A DNA stretch of 43,531 nt from Peptococcaceae bacterium (GTDB lineage: Bacteria > Bacillota > Desulfotomaculia > Desulfotomaculales > Pelotomaculaceae). Positions within the stretch are counted from its first letter, which is position 1. Each line of letters starts with the position of its first letter. The position numbers and the translations under genes were made by a program. The notes below the pieces were generated by a model, which made no database searches, was not told the DNA's origin, and saw only the letters and a list, made by a program, of their open reading frames with translations. Of this stretch, positions 4,744 to 39,392 are shown piece by piece. Location of the stretch: contig JAAYRI010000099.1 of assembly GCA_012518875.1 (NCBI GenBank), positions 1 through 43,531 on the forward strand, in the 5' to 3' direction.

Positions 4744-6021
4744 CTATCTATTATCCAACATTTCTAGGAAAGCTTCTACCCTGGTCTTAATTTGTGCTGT
4801 ATCTTCCTGCCCATAATCTGTTTCCAGATCCAAAAGGGGGATGTTTTCTTCTTGGAGCCTTTTGGCCACCCGGTTGGCCTCCACCAGATAGGGGTCACAG
4901 AAAGCCAGGTTGCAGTTAATAACCCCGTCTGCCTTCATTTCCCTGGCCAGACGCACTATATCTTTCATCCTGCCCTCATTGGGGGTAAAGCAGGCACAGT
5001 TGATGTCCAGATAGCGAGCGGCAATAGCCTCCACCATTTGCTCTACAGTTTCCCCATCTTCCGGCACCAGGTTCTCAAAATAGCGCAGCCCCGTGCACAT
5101 TTCTTCAGCCACAATCACCGCGCCGCTGGTTTCGATCACGTGAGGCACCTTCCAGTTGGGCAAAGCCATCGGGGTCCCCGAAAGAACCAGGCGAGGTGCA
5201 CCAGCTGCAGCAGCCCCTTTTCTGGTCATTACCCGGGCCTCAAGCTCATCGCAAAGGGCATTCACCTGAGCAGTAAACCGGGGTACATCATCATACATGG
5301 AGATTTGCTCAATCAATAGACAATCTTTGCCGCTAATCGGGGCAGGGTCGTGCCGGCGCAGCTCATTTAAACGCAGGAGTGCCCTGCGCTTGGCATTGGT
5401 GTCCTTAATCGCTTGACTCAACGATTCTGCTGTCACCTTATTGCCCGTAAACTCCACCAATGCGGCCAAAAAATCCTGCACCTCACTCAACCATAATGCC
5501 TTGTCTTTTTCCCGCTTCATCTGAGGTACTTCCATCACATGCACCGGCACATAGTCGTTTAATATTTCAAAAGCCTTCTTTTTCCCATCACATGTAGTTT
5601 CCCCCACAACCATATCGCAGGTTTCAAAATAAGGGCAAACCTTGCCTAGCTTAAAGCCCATGAAGGATTTAATCAGGGGGCAGATGTTTCGGGGCAGCAC
5701 CTTTTCCGCCTGGGCTGTGCCAATCTCCACCCCGGAACAGAGACCCACCTGGATCCCACCTGCGGCCCGCACAATTTCTTCCGGCACATATACACAAAAA
5801 GCACCGACCACCTTGCCTCCCTCTGCTTTGTGGTCCTGCAGCTCCTGAATGCGCTGGCCGTGGACCTCGCTGACTACAAAGTCAAAATACTCCATCCCCT
5901 CCGGCCTATTTTCCTGGTTCATGTACACGCTGCCATAAGAAATGGGCAACACATCCATCAACTGGTCGTGTGATGCCAAATCCAGCCCCAGGGACTGCCA
6001 CATTTTCCGGTGATCTGCCAT
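4744..6021 (-). CDS. 2-hydroxyacyl-CoA dehydratase/BcrB-HgdB family protein, probably a double-cubane-cluster-type reductase
   Basis: 425 aa; Cys pattern FCVYVPEE, NICPLIKSF, KVCPYFETCDMVVGETTCDGKKK; divergent to its activase; AAAGGAGG RBS. Confidence 0.85.
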   Translation of the reverse strand: MADHRKMWQSLGLDLASHDQLMDVLPISYGSVYMNQENRPEGMEYFDFVVSEVHGQRIQELQDHKAEGGKVVGAFCVYVPEEIVRAAGGIQVGLCSGVEIGTAQAEKVLPRNICPLIKSFMGFKLGKVCPYFETCDMVVGETTCDGKKKAFEILNDYVPVHVMEVPQMKREKDKALWLSEVQDFLAALVEFTGNKVTAESLSQAIKDTNAKRRALLRLNELRRHDPAPISGKDCLLIEQISMYDDVPRFTAQVNALCDELEARVMTRKGAAAAGAPRLVLSGTPMALPNWKVPHVIETSGAVIVAEEMCTGLRYFENLVPEDGETVEQMVEAIAARYLDINCACFTPNEGRMKDIVRLAREMKADGVINCNLAFCDPYLVEANRVAKRLQEENIPLLDLETDYGQEDTAQIKTRVEAFLEMLDNR

Positions 6022-6334
6022 TGCAGTTTTCCTCCTTTAAAATTTACTCATTTAAATTTAATTAGTCACTCTATTTGCCATGCAAAAGGGCCCTAAAAAC
6101 AATATTTAATATAAAATTTGACACCAGGTATAAAACCCCTTTATTGCCCCTATTTATTATTTTTATCACCAGGGCCCGATTAATAAGGCAACCTAATACC
6201 GGCAAAGACCCCGGTACCATTGATAAACAAGCATTATGCAAGCCCATTGATAGATAAAATTATTTTATATAACCCATCAGTTATGCTTATGGCATTATAA
6301 TAGAAGGAGTAGGGTTTAATAGAGGGATTTACCG

Positions 6335-6496
6335 ATGGCATTCTGGATCAGTGTTGGTTGGGGACGAAAAAATGGAAGCAGCTGCGGTAGACGCCTGAGA
6401 ATAATAAAAAAACCCCGGCCATGCCCCGTGTCATACAGTTGCTATCGAGGGGTTAGCAAGGTTTTAGCTGCAAGGGATGCCAGGGATATATTTTAA
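6335..6496 (+). CDS. Possible 53-aa leader or small ORF upstream of the activase
   Basis: ATG behind GAGGG; translation MAFWISVGWGRKNGSSCGRRLRIIKKPRPCPVSYSCYRGVSKVLAARDARDIF*. Below the length cutoff of the ORF track. Confidence 0.2.
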   Translation: MAFWISVGWGRKNGSSCGRRLRIIKKPRPCPVSYSCYRGVSKVLAARDARDIF

Positions 6497-6544
6497 AAGG
6501 GTTTCAAAGGTTTCAAGCATTTCACAACGGGAGGGGAACCTGTT

Positions 6545-7306
6545 ATGTATACAGTTGGACTGGATGTGGGGTCGATGATGACCAAAGGGGTACTGCTCAA
6601 TCGGGGTGTCTGGCAAAGCGTGGTTATACCTACAGGCTACAGCCCCCGCCAGGCTGGGGAACAGGCTTTTGAAAAACTGCTCCGCAAAGCTGGCCTGAGC
6701 CGGAAAAATGTCGACGTGGTTATTGGTACCGGATACGGCCGGGTAGCCCTTTCTTTTATTGATCGGGCAGTTACTGAGATTACCTGCCATGCTAAAGGTG
6801 CCCATTACCTGGTGGAAGGAACGGATATGGTGATCGATATCGGCGGCCAGGATAGTAAGGTGATTCTTACGGATGGGCGGGGAAATGTGACCAATTTTGT
6901 CATGAACGACAAGTGTGCCGCAGGCACCGGGCGGTTTTTACAGGTGATGGCTGCGGCTCTGGGCTGTGATGTCAGCGAACTGGCCGATCTGGCAGATAAT
7001 AGCCCACCAGCCCAAATCAGCAGCATGTGCACTGTCTTTGCAGAGTCGGAGGTGATTGGCCTGCTGGTTCAGGGCGTCAGCAAGGCCCGGATTATCGCCG
7101 GCATCCACCGTTCTGTGGCCACCCGGGTAGCAGCAATGGCCGCACGTTTGGGCTGCGGACAGCAGATTACCTTCACCGGCGGTGTAGCAAAAAACGCGGG
7201 CATCAAGCAGTGCCTGATCGCTGAGCTGAACCAGCCCATCACCACCGTACCAGAGTCCCATCTGGCCGGTGCCTTGGGGGCAGCCCTGATTGCCCAGGGT
7301 AATTAA
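6545..7306 (+). CDS. CoA-substrate-specific enzyme activase (HgdC/BadF/BcrA family)
   Basis: YTVGLDVGSMMTKGVL, VIDIGGQDSKVI, NDKCAAGTGRFLQVMA, FTGGVAKNAGI motifs; GGGAGGGG RBS. Confidence 0.95.
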   Translation: MYTVGLDVGSMMTKGVLLNRGVWQSVVIPTGYSPRQAGEQAFEKLLRKAGLSRKNVDVVIGTGYGRVALSFIDRAVTEITCHAKGAHYLVEGTDMVIDIGGQDSKVILTDGRGNVTNFVMNDKCAAGTGRFLQVMAAALGCDVSELADLADNSPPAQISSMCTVFAESEVIGLLVQGVSKARIIAGIHRSVATRVAAMAARLGCGQQITFTGGVAKNAGIKQCLIAELNQPITTVPESHLAGALGAALIAQGN

Positions 7307-7345: not shown

Positions 7346-8488
7346 TCACAGCCCTGAACATGTAGTGGAATCCGTCCCAACATCCCGGGACAGTTCCCTT
7401 ACCTTAAATTCCAGCATCTCACCTGTATGGGCATCAATTTCTACCTCATATTTCTTGTCGTCCTTTTTAACTTCCACCTCATATTCGTAGCGGCCCTGTT
7501 CTTTCTCCAGCACAAATTCCACCACCTGACCGCCACCAGTCCTAGTCAGGGCAATCTCCAGGGCCTTCTCCATGCCCAACAACAGCCCTGGTTGAACATT
7601 TCTGCCTGGATGGCCATCTCTTCTCTCTTTAAACTCCAGCACCTCACCTGTATGGGCATCAATTTCTACCTCATATTTCTTGTCATCCTTTTTAACCTCC
7701 ACCTCATATTCATAGCGGCCCCGTTCTTTTTCCAGCACAAATTCCACCACCTGACCACCGTCAGTCCTGGCCAGGGCAATCTCAAGGGCCTTCTCCATAT
7801 CCAGCAACGGGCCCATGCCCACTGTCCTGGAAGCTTCTACTTCCTCTTTTCCCGTACCGCCATCCAGGTCAGCAGCAACATTTTTTACCTGGACAAATAA
7901 CTCCTCTGGTTTAATGTCCAACCCTGCCGCCAGTGTCAAAATTCCCTGCAAACTAAGAGGGGCCAGCTCCTCAATAGACAAACTGCTGTCCACTGCTGTG
8001 AGTTTTTTAATAACCGCCAATTTTCCGGGAGATATACCCTTATCGGTAGCAATTGTCCGTATCTCTTTGCTGTATGTGATGGTCTGACCAAGCAATCTAG
8101 CTTCAACCTGCTTATTCTGCAAACTTTCCTCTATAAGTTGGCCTGCTTGCTCAAGAAGTGTGGGATGGGCATTGTTGTCGTTGGCTGTAATCATGATTAG
8201 GTTGTTTTTTTCAGCAGAAATATGACCTGTTAAAACCATTAAATCTACCAGTTCATTGACTACACCATCAAAGTCCCGATCCCCAACAGAAAAGCCCTCT
8301 AACACCTTTTTTGCCTCTTTATCTAAAGGACTTACAGAAAGAACATTGTTCAACCTGTTGGTGGTAATCTCTATGCCTGGGTTAACATCCAGGGTGATGC
8401 TATTGGCCGGCCGGGAAGAAAATACAAACACAACCAAGGCAATAAGAAACACCCCAGCCCACAAAATACCGAGCTTTTTCTTCTTCAC
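7346..8488 (-). CDS. RsgI-like extracytoplasmic domain protein with two tandem PepSY domains
   Basis: One N-terminal TM segment, then SITLDVNPGIEITTNRLNNVLSVSPL (RsgI mid-domain-like), then two near-identical ~75-aa PepSY units; GTG start at 8488 behind AGAGAGGTG. Confidence 0.75.
   Translation of the reverse strand: MKKKKLGILWAGVFLIALVVFVFSSRPANSITLDVNPGIEITTNRLNNVLSVSPLDKEAKKVLEGFSVGDRDFDGVVNELVDLMVLTGHISAEKNNLIMITANDNNAHPTLLEQAGQLIEESLQNKQVEARLLGQTITYSKEIRTIATDKGISPGKLAVIKKLTAVDSSLSIEELAPLSLQGILTLAAGLDIKPEELFVQVKNVAADLDGGTGKEEVEASRTVGMGPLLDMEKALEIALARTDGGQVVEFVLEKERGRYEYEVEVKKDDKKYEVEIDAHTGEVLEFKERRDGHPGRNVQPGLLLGMEKALEIALTRTGGGQVVEFVLEKEQGRYEYEVEVKKDDKKYEVEIDAHTGEMLEFKVRELSRDVGTDSTTCSGL
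7394..7815 (-). repeat. Intragenic tandem duplication, period 225 bp (75 aa), PepSY units
   Basis: Near-identical blocks containing acctgtatgggcatcaatttctacctcatatttcttgtc at about 7421 and 7646. Confidence 0.9.
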
Positions 8489-8618
8489 CTTTAACACCTC
8501 TCTTTTTTTACTCTTGGGCCTCTTGGGCCACAAGGACAGAGACAAGCCCGCTACCCCACCCTACAGGTGATCTTATCCTGAGTTTCTATCTTGTTCAATG
8601 GGCTCCTAAATAAAACAT

Positions 8619-8750: not shown

Positions 8751-9212
8751 TTAATGCTCCTGATAGATGGCCCCCGCGGGACAGAGCTTGATACAAGATC
8801 CACATTTTGTGCAGATCTGATTATCGATTACTGCTTTGTTTTCAACTAATGAAATAGCCCCTGCCGGGCATGTTTCTACGCATAACCCACAACCAACACA
8901 GCTATCATCGATGTATATTTTCCCGGCCGCCTTATTTTTTGGCAAAGCTTTTTTTATGGTTGTTTGTTCATAATTATAGTTGGTCTTTACGTCAGATCTT
9001 AAACCCTGGCCTAGCCCCCGACCTCGGCCCAAGCCCCTTCTGGAAGTAGGGGTCTCAATACCTCTACAGGCGCCGGAACCCCGGCCATAAACTGGTGTTG
9101 TTTTTCTGCAGGCACCAGAGCCCTTTCCCGCCATTGCCCCCATACCCGGCTGGCAGCTTCTATTTTTTCTAGACATTTTGTTCACCCCCTGATTATCTAC
9201 CCGATATGCCAT
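8751..9212 (-). CDS. 2x[4Fe-4S] ferredoxin-type protein with Gly/Arg-rich N-terminus
   Basis: Two CxxCxxCxxxCP motifs (CVGCGLCVETCP, CTKCGSCIKLCP); N-terminal PGMGAMAGKGSGAC...GRGSGACRG. The start is more likely at the internal MSRKNRS. Confidence 0.85.
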   Translation of the reverse strand: MAYRVDNQGVNKMSRKNRSCQPGMGAMAGKGSGACRKTTPVYGRGSGACRGIETPTSRRGLGRGRGLGQGLRSDVKTNYNYEQTTIKKALPKNKAAGKIYIDDSCVGCGLCVETCPAGAISLVENKAVIDNQICTKCGSCIKLCPAGAIYQEH

Positions 9213-35016: not shown

Positions 35017-36192
35017 CTAGACGATTAAACCACTGGTTGAAATGCCCATAAAGGAGTGGTAGCGATTTATTTCCGACTTGGTCATTTTGCCATTTATAAC
35101 ATCAATCATTTCCTCAAAAATCAGCTTGCTGGACTGTTCCAGATCAAATAAGCCCTCAGTTACATATGAAATATCCAGGTCTATGCAATCCGCCAGCCGG
35201 TGGGCTGTTTGTTCATTAGAGGTAATTTTGATGATTGGCATAAAGGGAAACCCATGTGGATCCCCAATGCCTGTTGTGAGCAAAACCAGCTGACAACCCG
35301 CCGCAGCTAATGCAGTTAAGGCCTCCGGTTCCCGACCCGGGAAATCTACCAGAATTAGCCCTTTTTCCGCCACCCTTTCCCCGTAACAACACACCTGTTC
35401 TATTTTTTGGTTGCCGCATTTGGAAATAAAACCGAGCGCCCTCTCCTCAATGGTGGTCAAGCCAATGTCGTGATTGAGCAGGGCCTTTTGTTCATTTTTA
35501 TAATTACTGTCGTTCTGATTGATCTTTTCTTTGGTGCCCTTGATTAACGCCCGTATTTCTGCGCAAACAGCATCAGTTACTCCTCTTTTGGAAATAAGAT
35601 TCTTGGCATAAATGAACTCAGATATTTCCCCGAATACTGTAACCCCGCCTTCTTCTATGATTTTATCAGATACCATGCCAATAGAGGGATTGGTAATTAG
35701 ACCGGAGGTGGAATCTGAGGCTCCGCATTTCAAACCGATTTTTAGGTCGGATAGCGACACTTCTACCCGTCTCACCCGGGAGGCATCCCCAACCATCTTT
35801 TGTCCTAGGAATACCCCCTGAGACTTGCTGATAGTCAGCCCCCCTTCAGCCCAAATACTAATATGACCCACTGGTTTACCAGATTGCTTGGCACTATATA
35901 CAATGTGATCCACATCAATATTCTCACAACCCAAACTAACGAAAATCACACCATATAAATTTGGGTTATAGGCCAATGATATCAGGGTCCTGGCTACGAT
36001 TTTCAAGTCCTCATTTAATTGGCAGCAGCCCTGATTATGAGTAAATGCTACGGCCCCATTCAAACTTTCCGCTATCCTTGTAGCCAGTTCATTGGCGCAT
36101 ACAGAGCAAGATATAATTCCTAGATAATTCCTGATACCTATGGAATTATCGGGCCTTTTATAACCATAAACAGTCACATCACTACCCTCCAT
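35017..36192 (-). CDS. UxaA-family dehydratase large (catalytic) domain protein
   Basis: GYKRPDNSIGIRNYLGIISCSVCANELA, FTHNQGCCQLNED, GLKCGASDSTSGLITNPSIGMVSDKIIEEGGVTVFGEISEF. Confidence 0.88.
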   Translation of the reverse strand: MEGSDVTVYGYKRPDNSIGIRNYLGIISCSVCANELATRIAESLNGAVAFTHNQGCCQLNEDLKIVARTLISLAYNPNLYGVIFVSLGCENIDVDHIVYSAKQSGKPVGHISIWAEGGLTISKSQGVFLGQKMVGDASRVRRVEVSLSDLKIGLKCGASDSTSGLITNPSIGMVSDKIIEEGGVTVFGEISEFIYAKNLISKRGVTDAVCAEIRALIKGTKEKINQNDSNYKNEQKALLNHDIGLTTIEERALGFISKCGNQKIEQVCCYGERVAEKGLILVDFPGREPEALTALAAAGCQLVLLTTGIGDPHGFPFMPIIKITSNEQTAHRLADCIDLDISYVTEGLFDLEQSSKLIFEEMIDVINGKMTKSEINRYHSFMGISTSGLIV

Positions 36193-36230
36193 TGGACATT
36201 ATCCTCCATTGCACATTTTTTAGTTTTCTA

Positions 36231-37286
36231 CTAGAATCCCAGCAGGTTTGAAATTTTTTGCCAATCACAGTGCTGTTCAATATTTTCCACCATGATGGTA
36301 ATCCCTTCTGTGTCTCCCGGGCGGATACGCCGGGAAACCTCAGACATCTTTTCGATAGTAGAATAGGTATCCCGGTGGACTAATATTACAGGTACCCCTT
36401 TTTCTGCTGCGCTGGCTACCACCTTGACATCGGGATACAGCCCCCCCGTGAGGATTAGTGCTGAGGTGCTGGTCTCCAGAGCCGCCACAGCAATATCGGC
36501 CCGGTCACCACCAATTACTACAGCCTTGTTAGCTGAGCGACGCATGTATTTTATAGCGCTGTCTGTGGTCATGGCCCCAACAATCACCTCTTCCACCAAA
36601 AGACCCAACCGATCCTCACCGGTGAGCAGCTCACCGCCCAGGGCCTCATAATATTCAGAAACTGTGGGAGAAGCGATTTCCGAACGAATGGGAATGATCC
36701 CCAGGGTATCGCAGCCCATTTTGCCCAGTAGGGGTGCAAATATGCCTTCAGTTTTGGAAAATAGTTGCCGTGGAACATTATTGAAAATGTGACCAGCCAT
36801 GTGCAGCCCCTTAGCCACAAAATAGTTATTCAAAAAAATGGCTTGATCCACACTGAAGTCATTTTCCAGCTTGATGATGTTTAGAACGGAGGCATCCAGC
36901 AGGCCGGCCAAGCTGACCACATCCAGTCCATAGGCAGCCCCCACATGGGTAAAGGCTGCACCATCAATGATCACCAGATCGGCCCCCAGGGACACTGCAC
37001 GAAATGCCTCCTGGATGTTGTCAAGGGCGGACTCCTGGTTTTTCAACCCGGAAAGGTAGGAAGTGCCGGCAACGAAAGGCACTATTTTTTTAATATCCAC
37101 ATCCATGCCTAAAAGCTCCCGCATCAAAATGGCGTCTTTATCCTCCCCGCCAATAAATTTTGACCTATTTCCTACCGGTTTAAAATAGCTGACGTTGTAT
37201 CCTTCCTTCTTAAACTTCAGGGCAATGCCCATTGCAATGGCCGTTTTACCACTCCCGGCCACACCCGTAATATATAGACTCTTCAT
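36231..37286 (-). CDS. BioD-like P-loop plus DRTGG-domain protein (phosphotransacetylase N-terminal-like, COG0857-type)
   Basis: MKSLYITGVAGSGKTAIAMGIALKFKKEGYNVSYFKPVGN; C-terminal half is DRTGG-like. Confidence 0.75.
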   Translation of the reverse strand: MKSLYITGVAGSGKTAIAMGIALKFKKEGYNVSYFKPVGNRSKFIGGEDKDAILMRELLGMDVDIKKIVPFVAGTSYLSGLKNQESALDNIQEAFRAVSLGADLVIIDGAAFTHVGAAYGLDVVSLAGLLDASVLNIIKLENDFSVDQAIFLNNYFVAKGLHMAGHIFNNVPRQLFSKTEGIFAPLLGKMGCDTLGIIPIRSEIASPTVSEYYEALGGELLTGEDRLGLLVEEVIVGAMTTDSAIKYMRRSANKAVVIGGDRADIAVAALETSTSALILTGGLYPDVKVVASAAEKGVPVILVHRDTYSTIEKMSEVSRRIRPGDTEGITIMVENIEQHCDWQKISNLLGF

Positions 37287-37295
37287 TGTTTCACC

Positions 37296-39392
37296 TCAGG
37301 ATAGTGTTATTTTAACGTCTAGGGCAGATACCCCGCGCTCATAAGCAAATATAGGATTGATGTCCACATCCACAATCTCCGGAAAATCAGTCACAAGCTG
37401 GGCCAAACGGCTGATAACCCCACATACGGCTTCCATATCTACAGGTTTGTCACCACGAAAGCCTTTCATAAGGGAATATGCCTTGGTCTCAGCAATCATC
37501 TCCTTTATTTCACCTAGTGTAAGCCCATGGGCCAATCTAAAGGAAACGTCCTTGAGCAGGTTAACATAAATGCCTCCCAGCCCAAAGGCAATCATGGGAC
37601 CAAACTGTACATCCCTGGTCATGCCGACAATCAGCTCTACACCCTTTGGCGCCATTTTCTGAACCTCAATACCGTGGGGCACCACGGCGGGCAGGTATTT
37701 GTGCACACTTTCCATGATATTTACGTAGGCACTTTTTACTTCATCGGCTGTTTTTATGCCAATCTTCACCCCGCCCACATCGGTTTTGTGCAGTATTTTT
37801 GGTGAGGCCACCTTCAACACCACCGGGTAACCCATTTCGTTGGCCACTGCCGCCGCCTCTTCAGGGCTCTGGGATAATCTAGTCGGGGTAGCCGATACAC
37901 CATAAGCAGCTATCACCTCTGCCGCCTCACTACCGAGCAGGCTGAGACGGTTGTCTCTTTTTACATCATAAAATACTGCTTTGACCGTTTTTAAATCCGG
38001 CTGATAACCATTGTCTTTTTTGTTCAGGCTGCTGACCCTGACTTCCCCATAGGTGGACATCCCGGCGAGGGCACCTATAGCCGGCTCTGGCATGGCAAAG
38101 GTGGGAATACCGCTTTCACTGAGCATTTTTGTCCCTTCCTCCAGGGATGGGCCCCCCATATAAGAAGCAATCAAGGGTTTGTCGGGGTAAGCCTTATTTA
38201 ACTCAATCATTGCCCGGGCCGTTTCCACAGGCTGGGTAACTGCCACCGGACATAATAACACTACTACACTGTCTACATTTTCATCTTGAAGAACCTTTTC
38301 CAGGGCAAACTGAAAACGGTCCGCTTTAGCGTCACCTAACACATCTACCGGGTTGTAGATACCAGCTTCTGAAGGCAGGTTTAACCGCAGTTCATCAATG
38401 GTTTCCTTAGTAAAACGGGCCATCGAAAGGCTGGATTCCTCAATTTTATCAGTAGCAATGATCCCCGGTCCGCCAGCATTGGTGATCACTGCCACCCTCT
38501 TGCCCCTGGGAATGGGTTGGTTAACGAAAAGGGAGGCCAAGTCAAAAAGTTCAGACATACTATTGGCCCGCAACACACCACACCGTTTAAAAGCTACGTC
38601 ATAGGCCAGCTCGCTGCCGGCCAGGGCCCCGGTATGAGAGGAAGCAGCCTGAGCACCTGCTTGACTGGTACCGGATTTCAATACTATTACCGGCTTTTTG
38701 CGTGTCACCTCTGCTAAAACCCTTAAAAACTCCGAGCCGCAAGCAACGTCTTCCAGGTAACAAATGATCACCTTTGTATTGGGATCCGCCGCCGCCTCTA
38801 CAATACAATCCACTTCATTTATATCAGCCTTATTTCCCAGACTATATATTTTACTGTAACCGATACCAGCTGCCATGCTCCAATCCAGTACTGCTGCCAG
38901 CATGGCTCCACTTTGGGAAACAAAGGCGATGCCCCCCTTAGCAGGAAATCCCTTGAGGAAAGTGGCATTGATCGGGGTATGGGTATCAACGAAACCAACA
39001 CAGTTGGGACCCAGCACCCGCATGTCGTACTGGCGGCAAAGGGCCAAAAAGCTTTTTTCCAACTCGGCTCCCTCTCGGCCCGTTTCCTTAAAACCAGCCG
39101 TCAGCACAACCAGGTTTTTTACACCCTTGCGGCCGCATTCCTCAGCTATATCCAGGACCTTAGCAGCAGGTACCGCAAATACAGCTGTTTCCACCTTATC
39201 AGGGATTTTTTCTACAGCCGGGTAGCAGGCAATTCCCAGTATCTCTTTTGCTTTGGGGTGCACAGGGTAGATTTTTCCCTGATAGCCGCTCTTAATCAAA
39301 TTATCTACTAGGACATAGCCAATTTTCCCCGGGGTCTGGGAAGCCCCGATTACGGCCAGGGATTTTGGCGCTGAAAAACTATTTGTAACCAC
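37296..39392 (-). CDS. ADP-forming acetate/acyl-CoA ligase, fused alpha-beta
   Basis: SLAVIGASQTPGKIGYVLVDNLIKSGYQGKIYPVHPKAKEILG, ASSHTGALAGSELAYDVAFKRCGV (phospho-His region), ATP-grasp GYPVVLKVASPKILHKTDVGGVKIGI. Confidence 0.93.
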   Translation of the reverse strand: MVTNSFSAPKSLAVIGASQTPGKIGYVLVDNLIKSGYQGKIYPVHPKAKEILGIACYPAVEKIPDKVETAVFAVPAAKVLDIAEECGRKGVKNLVVLTAGFKETGREGAELEKSFLALCRQYDMRVLGPNCVGFVDTHTPINATFLKGFPAKGGIAFVSQSGAMLAAVLDWSMAAGIGYSKIYSLGNKADINEVDCIVEAAADPNTKVIICYLEDVACGSEFLRVLAEVTRKKPVIVLKSGTSQAGAQAASSHTGALAGSELAYDVAFKRCGVLRANSMSELFDLASLFVNQPIPRGKRVAVITNAGGPGIIATDKIEESSLSMARFTKETIDELRLNLPSEAGIYNPVDVLGDAKADRFQFALEKVLQDENVDSVVVLLCPVAVTQPVETARAMIELNKAYPDKPLIASYMGGPSLEEGTKMLSESGIPTFAMPEPAIGALAGMSTYGEVRVSSLNKKDNGYQPDLKTVKAVFYDVKRDNRLSLLGSEAAEVIAAYGVSATPTRLSQSPEEAAAVANEMGYPVVLKVASPKILHKTDVGGVKIGIKTADEVKSAYVNIMESVHKYLPAVVPHGIEVQKMAPKGVELIVGMTRDVQFGPMIAFGLGGIYVNLLKDVSFRLAHGLTLGEIKEMIAETKAYSLMKGFRGDKPVDMEAVCGVISRLAQLVTDFPEIVDVDINPIFAYERGVSALDVKITLS

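Follow-up and report, generated by a model that had tools for sequence, protein, structure and literature searches.

What does a divergent pair of genes for a dehydratase-like protein and an ATP-dependent activase do in a Peptococcaceae bacterium? The question is raised by a 43,531-bp stretch of its DNA (hereafter, the window), which is contig 222 of an assembly (G000) that has 227 contigs and is 80% complete. A reading made from the letters of the window (the sequence-only reading) had proposed the pair as a candidate double-cubane-cluster reductase system. The double-cubane cluster resembles the cofactors of nitrogenase. The natural role of the reductases that carry it has been an open question since 2018, and the interest of the present locus lies mainly in a lead to selenium. 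The characterized double-cubane-cluster protein (DCCP) reduces acetylene, hydrazine, and azide, and the biological function of DCCPs was still called unknown in 2025 (PMC11971306).

Both genes that the sequence-only reading had placed here are in the list of open reading frames of the window, at the coordinates given in Table 1. The genes are divergent, and the gap between them is 523 bp. Plausible ribosome-binding sites were found for the DCCP gene (AAAGGAGGA at 6038-6030) and for the activase gene (GGGAGGGG at 6529-6536). The same gene pair is carried by a relative of the same genus, G005, in which about 100 bp of the intergenic region are missing relative to the window. A promoter and terminator scan of the intergenic region gave nothing above shuffled background, and an Rfam scan of the window found only a tRNA. 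The closest named relative is Candidatus Syntrophopropionicum ammoniitolerans MAG 62 (L124), and the next matches are mostly from Pelotomaculum-type genomes.

Table 1. Coordinates of the gene pair, its intergenic region, and the codons of aligned or expected cluster ligands in the window.
Feature	Position	Strand	Remarks
Double-cubane-cluster protein (DCCP), long type, 425 aa	4744..6021	-	ATG start 6021-6019; NF040772, 6ENO, AlphaFold2/Foldseek
ASKHA-type ATP-dependent activase (putative DCCP reductase role), 253 aa	6545..7306	+	TIGR00241; BcrAD_BadFG PF01869; PDB relatives HadI, MbdQ, CHY DCCP-R 7yyl_E; clade of short-DCCP/SAO activases
Shared intergenic region with both 5' ends, 523 bp	6022..6544	.	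DCCP-proximal part conserved with G005
Codon of C76, [8Fe-9S] ligand position equivalent to BzdN C36	5794..5796	-	invariant in 65/65; absent in HadC, MbdN
Codon of C114, ligand position equivalent to BzdN C73	5680..5682	-	invariant in 65/65
Codon of C144, ligand position equivalent to BzdN C100	5590..5592	-	invariant in 65/65
Codon of C309, ligand position equivalent to BzdN C263	5095..5097	-	invariant in 65/65; absent in HadC, MbdN
Codon of C342, probable ligand, BzdN C293 one alignment column away	4996..4998	-	invariant in 65/65
Codon of C375, ligand position equivalent to BzdN C327	4897..4899	-	invariant except one gapped row
Codon of activase C124 (NDKCAAGTG), expected ligand of inter-subunit [4Fe-4S] cluster	6914..6916	+	motif common to HgdC, HadI, CHY DCCP-R
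Codon of activase C162 (SSMCTVFAESEV), expected second ligand	7028..7030	+	motif common to HgdC, HadI, CHY DCCP-R

No conserved third partner for the pair was found in the window. An ABC operon of the phosphate type, which lies downstream of the DCCP gene in G009, G014, and G017, was considered together with other neighbours, and these candidates were set aside because they look like local synteny. In G009 and G014 (L035 and L036; G009:C57 and G014:C299), a long DCCP about 90% identical to that of the window has no adjoining activase and is followed by the apparent phosphate-type ABC transporter operon. Three other regions of the window were recorded. The gene at 7346-8545 (minus strand) encodes an RsgI-like anti-sigma central domain and then two nearly identical PepSY repeats. 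The product of 8751-9212 (minus strand) is ferredoxin-like, with two [4Fe-4S] motifs after a Gly/Arg-rich N-terminal part and a weak DUF5320 match. Positions 35017-39392 (minus strand) hold galactarate-dehydratase-like, phosphate-acetyltransferase N-domain-like, and ADP-forming acyl-CoA ligase genes, among which only the ligase alpha domain met its cut-off.

The larger protein was identified by its model scores, fold, and tree position. It scored 494.6 bits with the equivalog model NF040772, 'double-cubane-cluster-containing anaerobic reductase' (cut-off 350, E = 1.7e-148), and only 83-115 bits with the models for HadC, BzdN, and BcrC (94.7 for BzdN). Pfam places it in the HGD-D superfamily. 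With phmmer, it aligned end to end with the Carboxydothermus hydrogenoformans DCCP 6ENO (E = 3e-151). An AlphaFold2 model, built from an input of 26 window and locus sequences, had a mean pLDDT of 93.4. In a Foldseek search, 6eno and the DCCP:DCCP-R complexes were its top PDB matches (TM 0.96/0.97, 1.4 A); BzdN and HadC came next and fitted much less closely (TMq 0.77-0.78). In a tree with its kin, the window DCCP and 6ENO fell together in a clade of the long type, with BzdN, MbdN, and HadC placed elsewhere, although the outgroup branches are long. The protein groups with the DCCPs, outside the subunits of dehydratases and benzoyl-CoA reductases.

The ligands of BzdN (C36, C73, C100, C263, C293, and C327; PMC11971306) were mapped by alignment onto the window DCCP, and ligand conservation was judged over 65 DCCPs. 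The six positions C76, C114, C144, C309, C342, and C375 are invariant in these 65 proteins, except for one gapped row. The cysteines listed by the sequence-only reading were partly the right ones. C76 (FCVYVPEE), C114 (NICPLIKSF), and C144 (TTCDGK) are at ligand positions, but C129 and C135 (KVCPYFETCD) lie outside the positions that align with ligands, and the conservation of C135 does not extend to short-type DCCPs. The remaining ligand cysteines, C309, C342, and C375, are in the C-terminal half and were missing from that list. The six-cysteine double-cubane set is present, and two of its members have no equivalent in HadC or MbdN.

The smaller protein scored 262.2 bits with TIGR00241 (cut-off 125.4) and matched Pfam BcrAD_BadFG (PF01869). 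The proposal of a divergent ATP-dependent activase held, and the protein is of the acyl-CoA-dehydratase activase type, with both C124 and C162 present. Its best PDB scores were to HadI and MbdQ, and then to C. hydrogenoformans DCCP-R. The resemblance to the Carboxydothermus double-cubane pairs was borne out by the 6ENO alignment, the shared fold, and the ASKHA activase alongside. The larger gene almost certainly encodes a DCCP with a complete [8Fe-9S] cysteine set and the smaller an ASKHA activase with the two inter-subunit [4Fe-4S] cysteines, as judged from the sequences and the predicted structure. These results indicate that the pair is a well-supported further member of the known DCCP/activase kind.

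The pairing of this DCCP with this activase is unusual. DCCPs occur over the cut-off in 47 of the 60 genomes of the order and are of two types, long (~425 aa) and short (~385 aa). In L118 and L119 (G018:C135 and G006:C34), short-type DCCP genes lie close together in groups of two or three and are ~32-38% identical to the DCCP of the window. Among the loci fetched, long DCCPs whose adjoining activase is 38-53% identical to that of the window have it in tandem. Non-tandem activases were found in the window and G005 (divergent), in L134 (divergent), and in G023 (convergent), and these are 71-100% identical to the window's. The window activase is of the type that usually partners short DCCPs, with 67-80% identity to those activases. 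One of 68% identity stands in tandem behind a short DCCP in L141 (G018). SAO is a selenocysteine-assisted organometal system, and short DCCPs in many kin adjoin the SAO genes SaoE, SaoC, SaoX, SaoB, SaoP, SaoA, SaoD, and SaoT (NCBIfam names). The phylogeny of the activases nested the window protein in the short-DCCP/SAO activase clade, with support of 85/96 in the more careful reconstruction. A topology that moves it to the clade of the tandem activases, which accompanies most long DCCPs of the order, was rejected by the AU test (p-AU = 2.3e-5). The genome of the window and G005 have one DCCP each, and the former has two further activases (G000:C70 and G000:C167). We infer from these comparisons a partner exchange in this genus, in which the long DCCP of the window would be served by an activase type that elsewhere serves short DCCPs. 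The exchanged activase offers a natural test of the specificity of the activase-DCCP interface.

Since selD was present in 57 of the 60 genomes of the order, the order-level test of selD against DCCP was uninformative, and wider samples were used. The phylum sample comprised 160 genomes, of which 55 had DCCP and 111 had selD over the cut-off; the incomplete assembly of the window's own genome was left out of the test, giving 159. All 54 DCCP-positive genomes had selD compared with 57 of the 105 DCCP-negative genomes (p = 1.7e-11), a co-occurrence that is a correlation among genomes that are related and not independent. PFOR is a marker of anaerobic metabolism (fermentation), and its presence was independent of DCCP (26/54 DCCP-positive vs 49/105 DCCP-negative, p = 0.87). 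When only PFOR-positive genomes were counted, selD was present in 26/26 with DCCP and in 24/49 without (p = 1.4e-6), and the difference persisted after collapsing to families (18/18 vs 13/28, p = 8e-5). The 120 Spirochaetota genomes gave a similar result: DCCP was matched in 25 of them (24 over the cut-off), every one of which had selD, compared with 38 of the 95 without a match (p = 6e-9). A separate collection added 13 DCCP-positive genomes, all with selD. Among 14 control genomes, E. coli and M. jannaschii alone passed the cut-offs, and they did so for both DCCP and selD. About half of the selD-positive genomes in the phylum sample had no DCCP, so DCCP is not required for selenium use.

The window's own genome carries selA (Sec synthase; G000:C194, E = 3.1e-184), and no selD match over the cut-off was found in its 80%-complete assembly. 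As G005 of the same genus has selD, the missing gene is probably an assembly gap. In the 43.5-kb window itself, no selenium genes were recognized, and in-frame TGA read-through of the open reading frames gave no convincing selenoprotein.

Selenium genes are found beside DCCP genes elsewhere. In the MAGs of Ca. Oleimmundimicrobium and an Actinomycetota bacterium (L149 and L150), the order is tusA-yedE-DCCP-activase-yedF-cysteine desulfurase/Sec-lyase-like-DUF3343. The YedE and YedF of L149 were over the NCBIfam cut-offs, and its DUF3343 protein corresponds to Pfam Se_S_carrier; the aminotransferase passed TIGR01977 and failed the SclA model. A DUF3343 gene directly follows the DCCP gene in seven Clostridia loci. 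In L042 and L043 (G010 and G018), SelD is encoded at a distance of two genes from the DCCP, and YedE and TusA are beside the DCCP in L070 (G058). In Tepidibacter and other Clostridia (L151, L153, L154, L156, L157, and L159), DUF3343 (Se_S_carrier) was observed between the DCCP and activase genes in the same orientation. Small open reading frames beside the DCCP in L040, L042, L047, and L116 had been suspected to be DUF3343, and no likeness was found.

Previous reports provisionally linked DCCP to selenium (PMC10418091) and listed an activase and subunits of a dehydratase close to the selenium genes of Slackia (PMC5322559), so the selenium idea is not new. What is added here is the strict co-occurrence of DCCP and selD, and no such count was found in the literature searched. 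A ygfI mutant of E. coli shows lower expression of yjiM and yjiL along with the genes for formate hydrogenlyase (PMC9068703). This observation was set aside as too indirect.

We put at about 60% the probability that the locus encodes a two-component ATP-driven double-cubane reductase with a physiological job in selenium metabolism and a DCCP served by a short-type activase. By analogy with the C. hydrogenoformans system, the homodimeric activase would take an electron from a low-potential donor and bind ATP. It would dock on the DCCP dimer, where ATP would power the transfer of the electron to the [8Fe-9S] cluster, and the cluster would reduce a small substrate. Comparative genomics suggests that the most likely job of the pair would be to supply SelD with selenide, made or freed from a selenium compound that is more oxidized or is alkylated; selenite-derived, elemental, and alkylated sources are candidates that the data do not tell apart. 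The selenium role is derived from the co-occurrence with selD and from the selenium-gene neighbours in several lineages, and it is limited by the correlation being one across related genomes, by the window having no selenium genes, and by the many selD-positive genomes without DCCP. A wider proposal, which we make tentatively and would not bet on, is that in anaerobes that use selenium, double-cubane reductases may perform the ATP-driven step by which selenide is made or released for SelD, and that the reduction of acetylene, azide, and hydrazine may be side reactions of this chemistry. In two phyla, every genome with DCCP also had selD while the converse did not hold, and this pattern, together with the neighbouring selenium genes, turns a vague 'small-molecule reduction' into a specific hypothesis, testable in laboratory E. 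coli, where the homologues are yjiM and yjiL.

The pair could instead be a general ATP-driven reductase that scavenges or detoxifies small molecules like azide, hydrazine, and acetylene, with the selenium link as a by-product of a shared lifestyle. The substrates of the characterized DCCP (PMC11971306) and the drop in expression in C. maritimus under CO (PMC7306483) are consistent with this. However, DCCP was unlinked to PFOR and strictly linked to selD, also within PFOR-positive genomes, and selenium genes are its operon neighbours in several lineages. We consider such a general role rather doubtful. A component of a 2-hydroxyacyl-CoA dehydratase or benzoyl-CoA reductase is a reading that shares the HGD-D superfamily and has BzdN and HadC as the next structural neighbours. 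It can be regarded as ruled out for practical purposes by the scores (94.7 bits for the BzdN model vs 494.6 for the DCCP model), the separate tree position, and the two ligand cysteines that HadC and MbdN lack. In addition, a search of the genome with the DCCP model (E <= 0.001) gave one match, so no second dehydratase-type subunit was seen in the 80%-complete assembly, in agreement with the single subunit that had been pointed out earlier. The flanking open reading frames, as read, likewise agree with the earlier remark that no CoA-transferase or acyl-CoA dehydrogenase adjoins the pair, and its neighbours are not those of CoA metabolism.

The remaining alternatives arise from the type of the activase. 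It may be a leftover of a lost short-DCCP/SAO cluster, with the DCCP using another activase. In favour of this, the gene belongs to a clade that serves short DCCPs, two further activases are encoded in the genome, and the ~90% identical DCCP of G009 and G014 has no activase next to it; yet the gene is intact with a ribosome-binding site and is kept beside the DCCP in G005 at 92% identity, and similar non-operonic pairs occur in L134 and G023. A leftover is unlikely. A role for the pair in handling organometals or metalloids, as the SAO transporter system does, seems very unlikely. It would fit the SAO neighbours of the short DCCPs and activases of kin and the 67-80% identity to the activases of SAO clusters, but long DCCPs are mostly without SAO genes. 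SaoE had no match in the window's genome and none over the cut-off in G005, which has the same pair. SAO membership of the window pair was dropped, as its genome lacks SaoE. In L042, L033, L047, and L113, a molybdopterin oxidoreductase of ~710 aa was observed beside a long or short DCCP and SAO genes. These oxidoreductases are 75-77% identical to the L042 copy and met no listed equivalog cut-off.

Compared with known systems, the reductase proposed here shares its fold and activase type with HadBC, the (R)-2-hydroxyisocaproyl-CoA dehydratase. HadBC differs in having two subunits and a CoA-ester substrate, and C76 and C309 have no counterparts in HadC. In class I benzoyl-CoA reductase (8S02), BzdN carries a six-cysteine [8Fe-9S] cluster, of which five ligands align exactly with the window DCCP and the sixth is one column off. 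In contrast to the window DCCP, it is the electron-transfer/storage subunit of a heterodimer that acts on a CoA ester (PMC11971306), and it is set apart by its low sequence score and tree position. The SAO clusters of Pelotomaculum-type genomes (for example, L042, L043, and L115) have a short DCCP with an activase 67-80% identical to the window's, whereas the window DCCP is of the long type, ~40% identical to the short one, in a genome without SaoE. The DCCP/DCCP-R system of C. hydrogenoformans (6ENO, 7YYL, 7YZM, and 7YZQ) is unlike the present pair in that the window activase is divergently transcribed at 523 bp and scores higher to HadI and MbdQ than to DCCP-R. It is alike in its full-length DCCP, which is 52% identical in the structural alignment, and in the same fold (TM 0.96/0.97), the same six cysteines, and an ASKHA activase.
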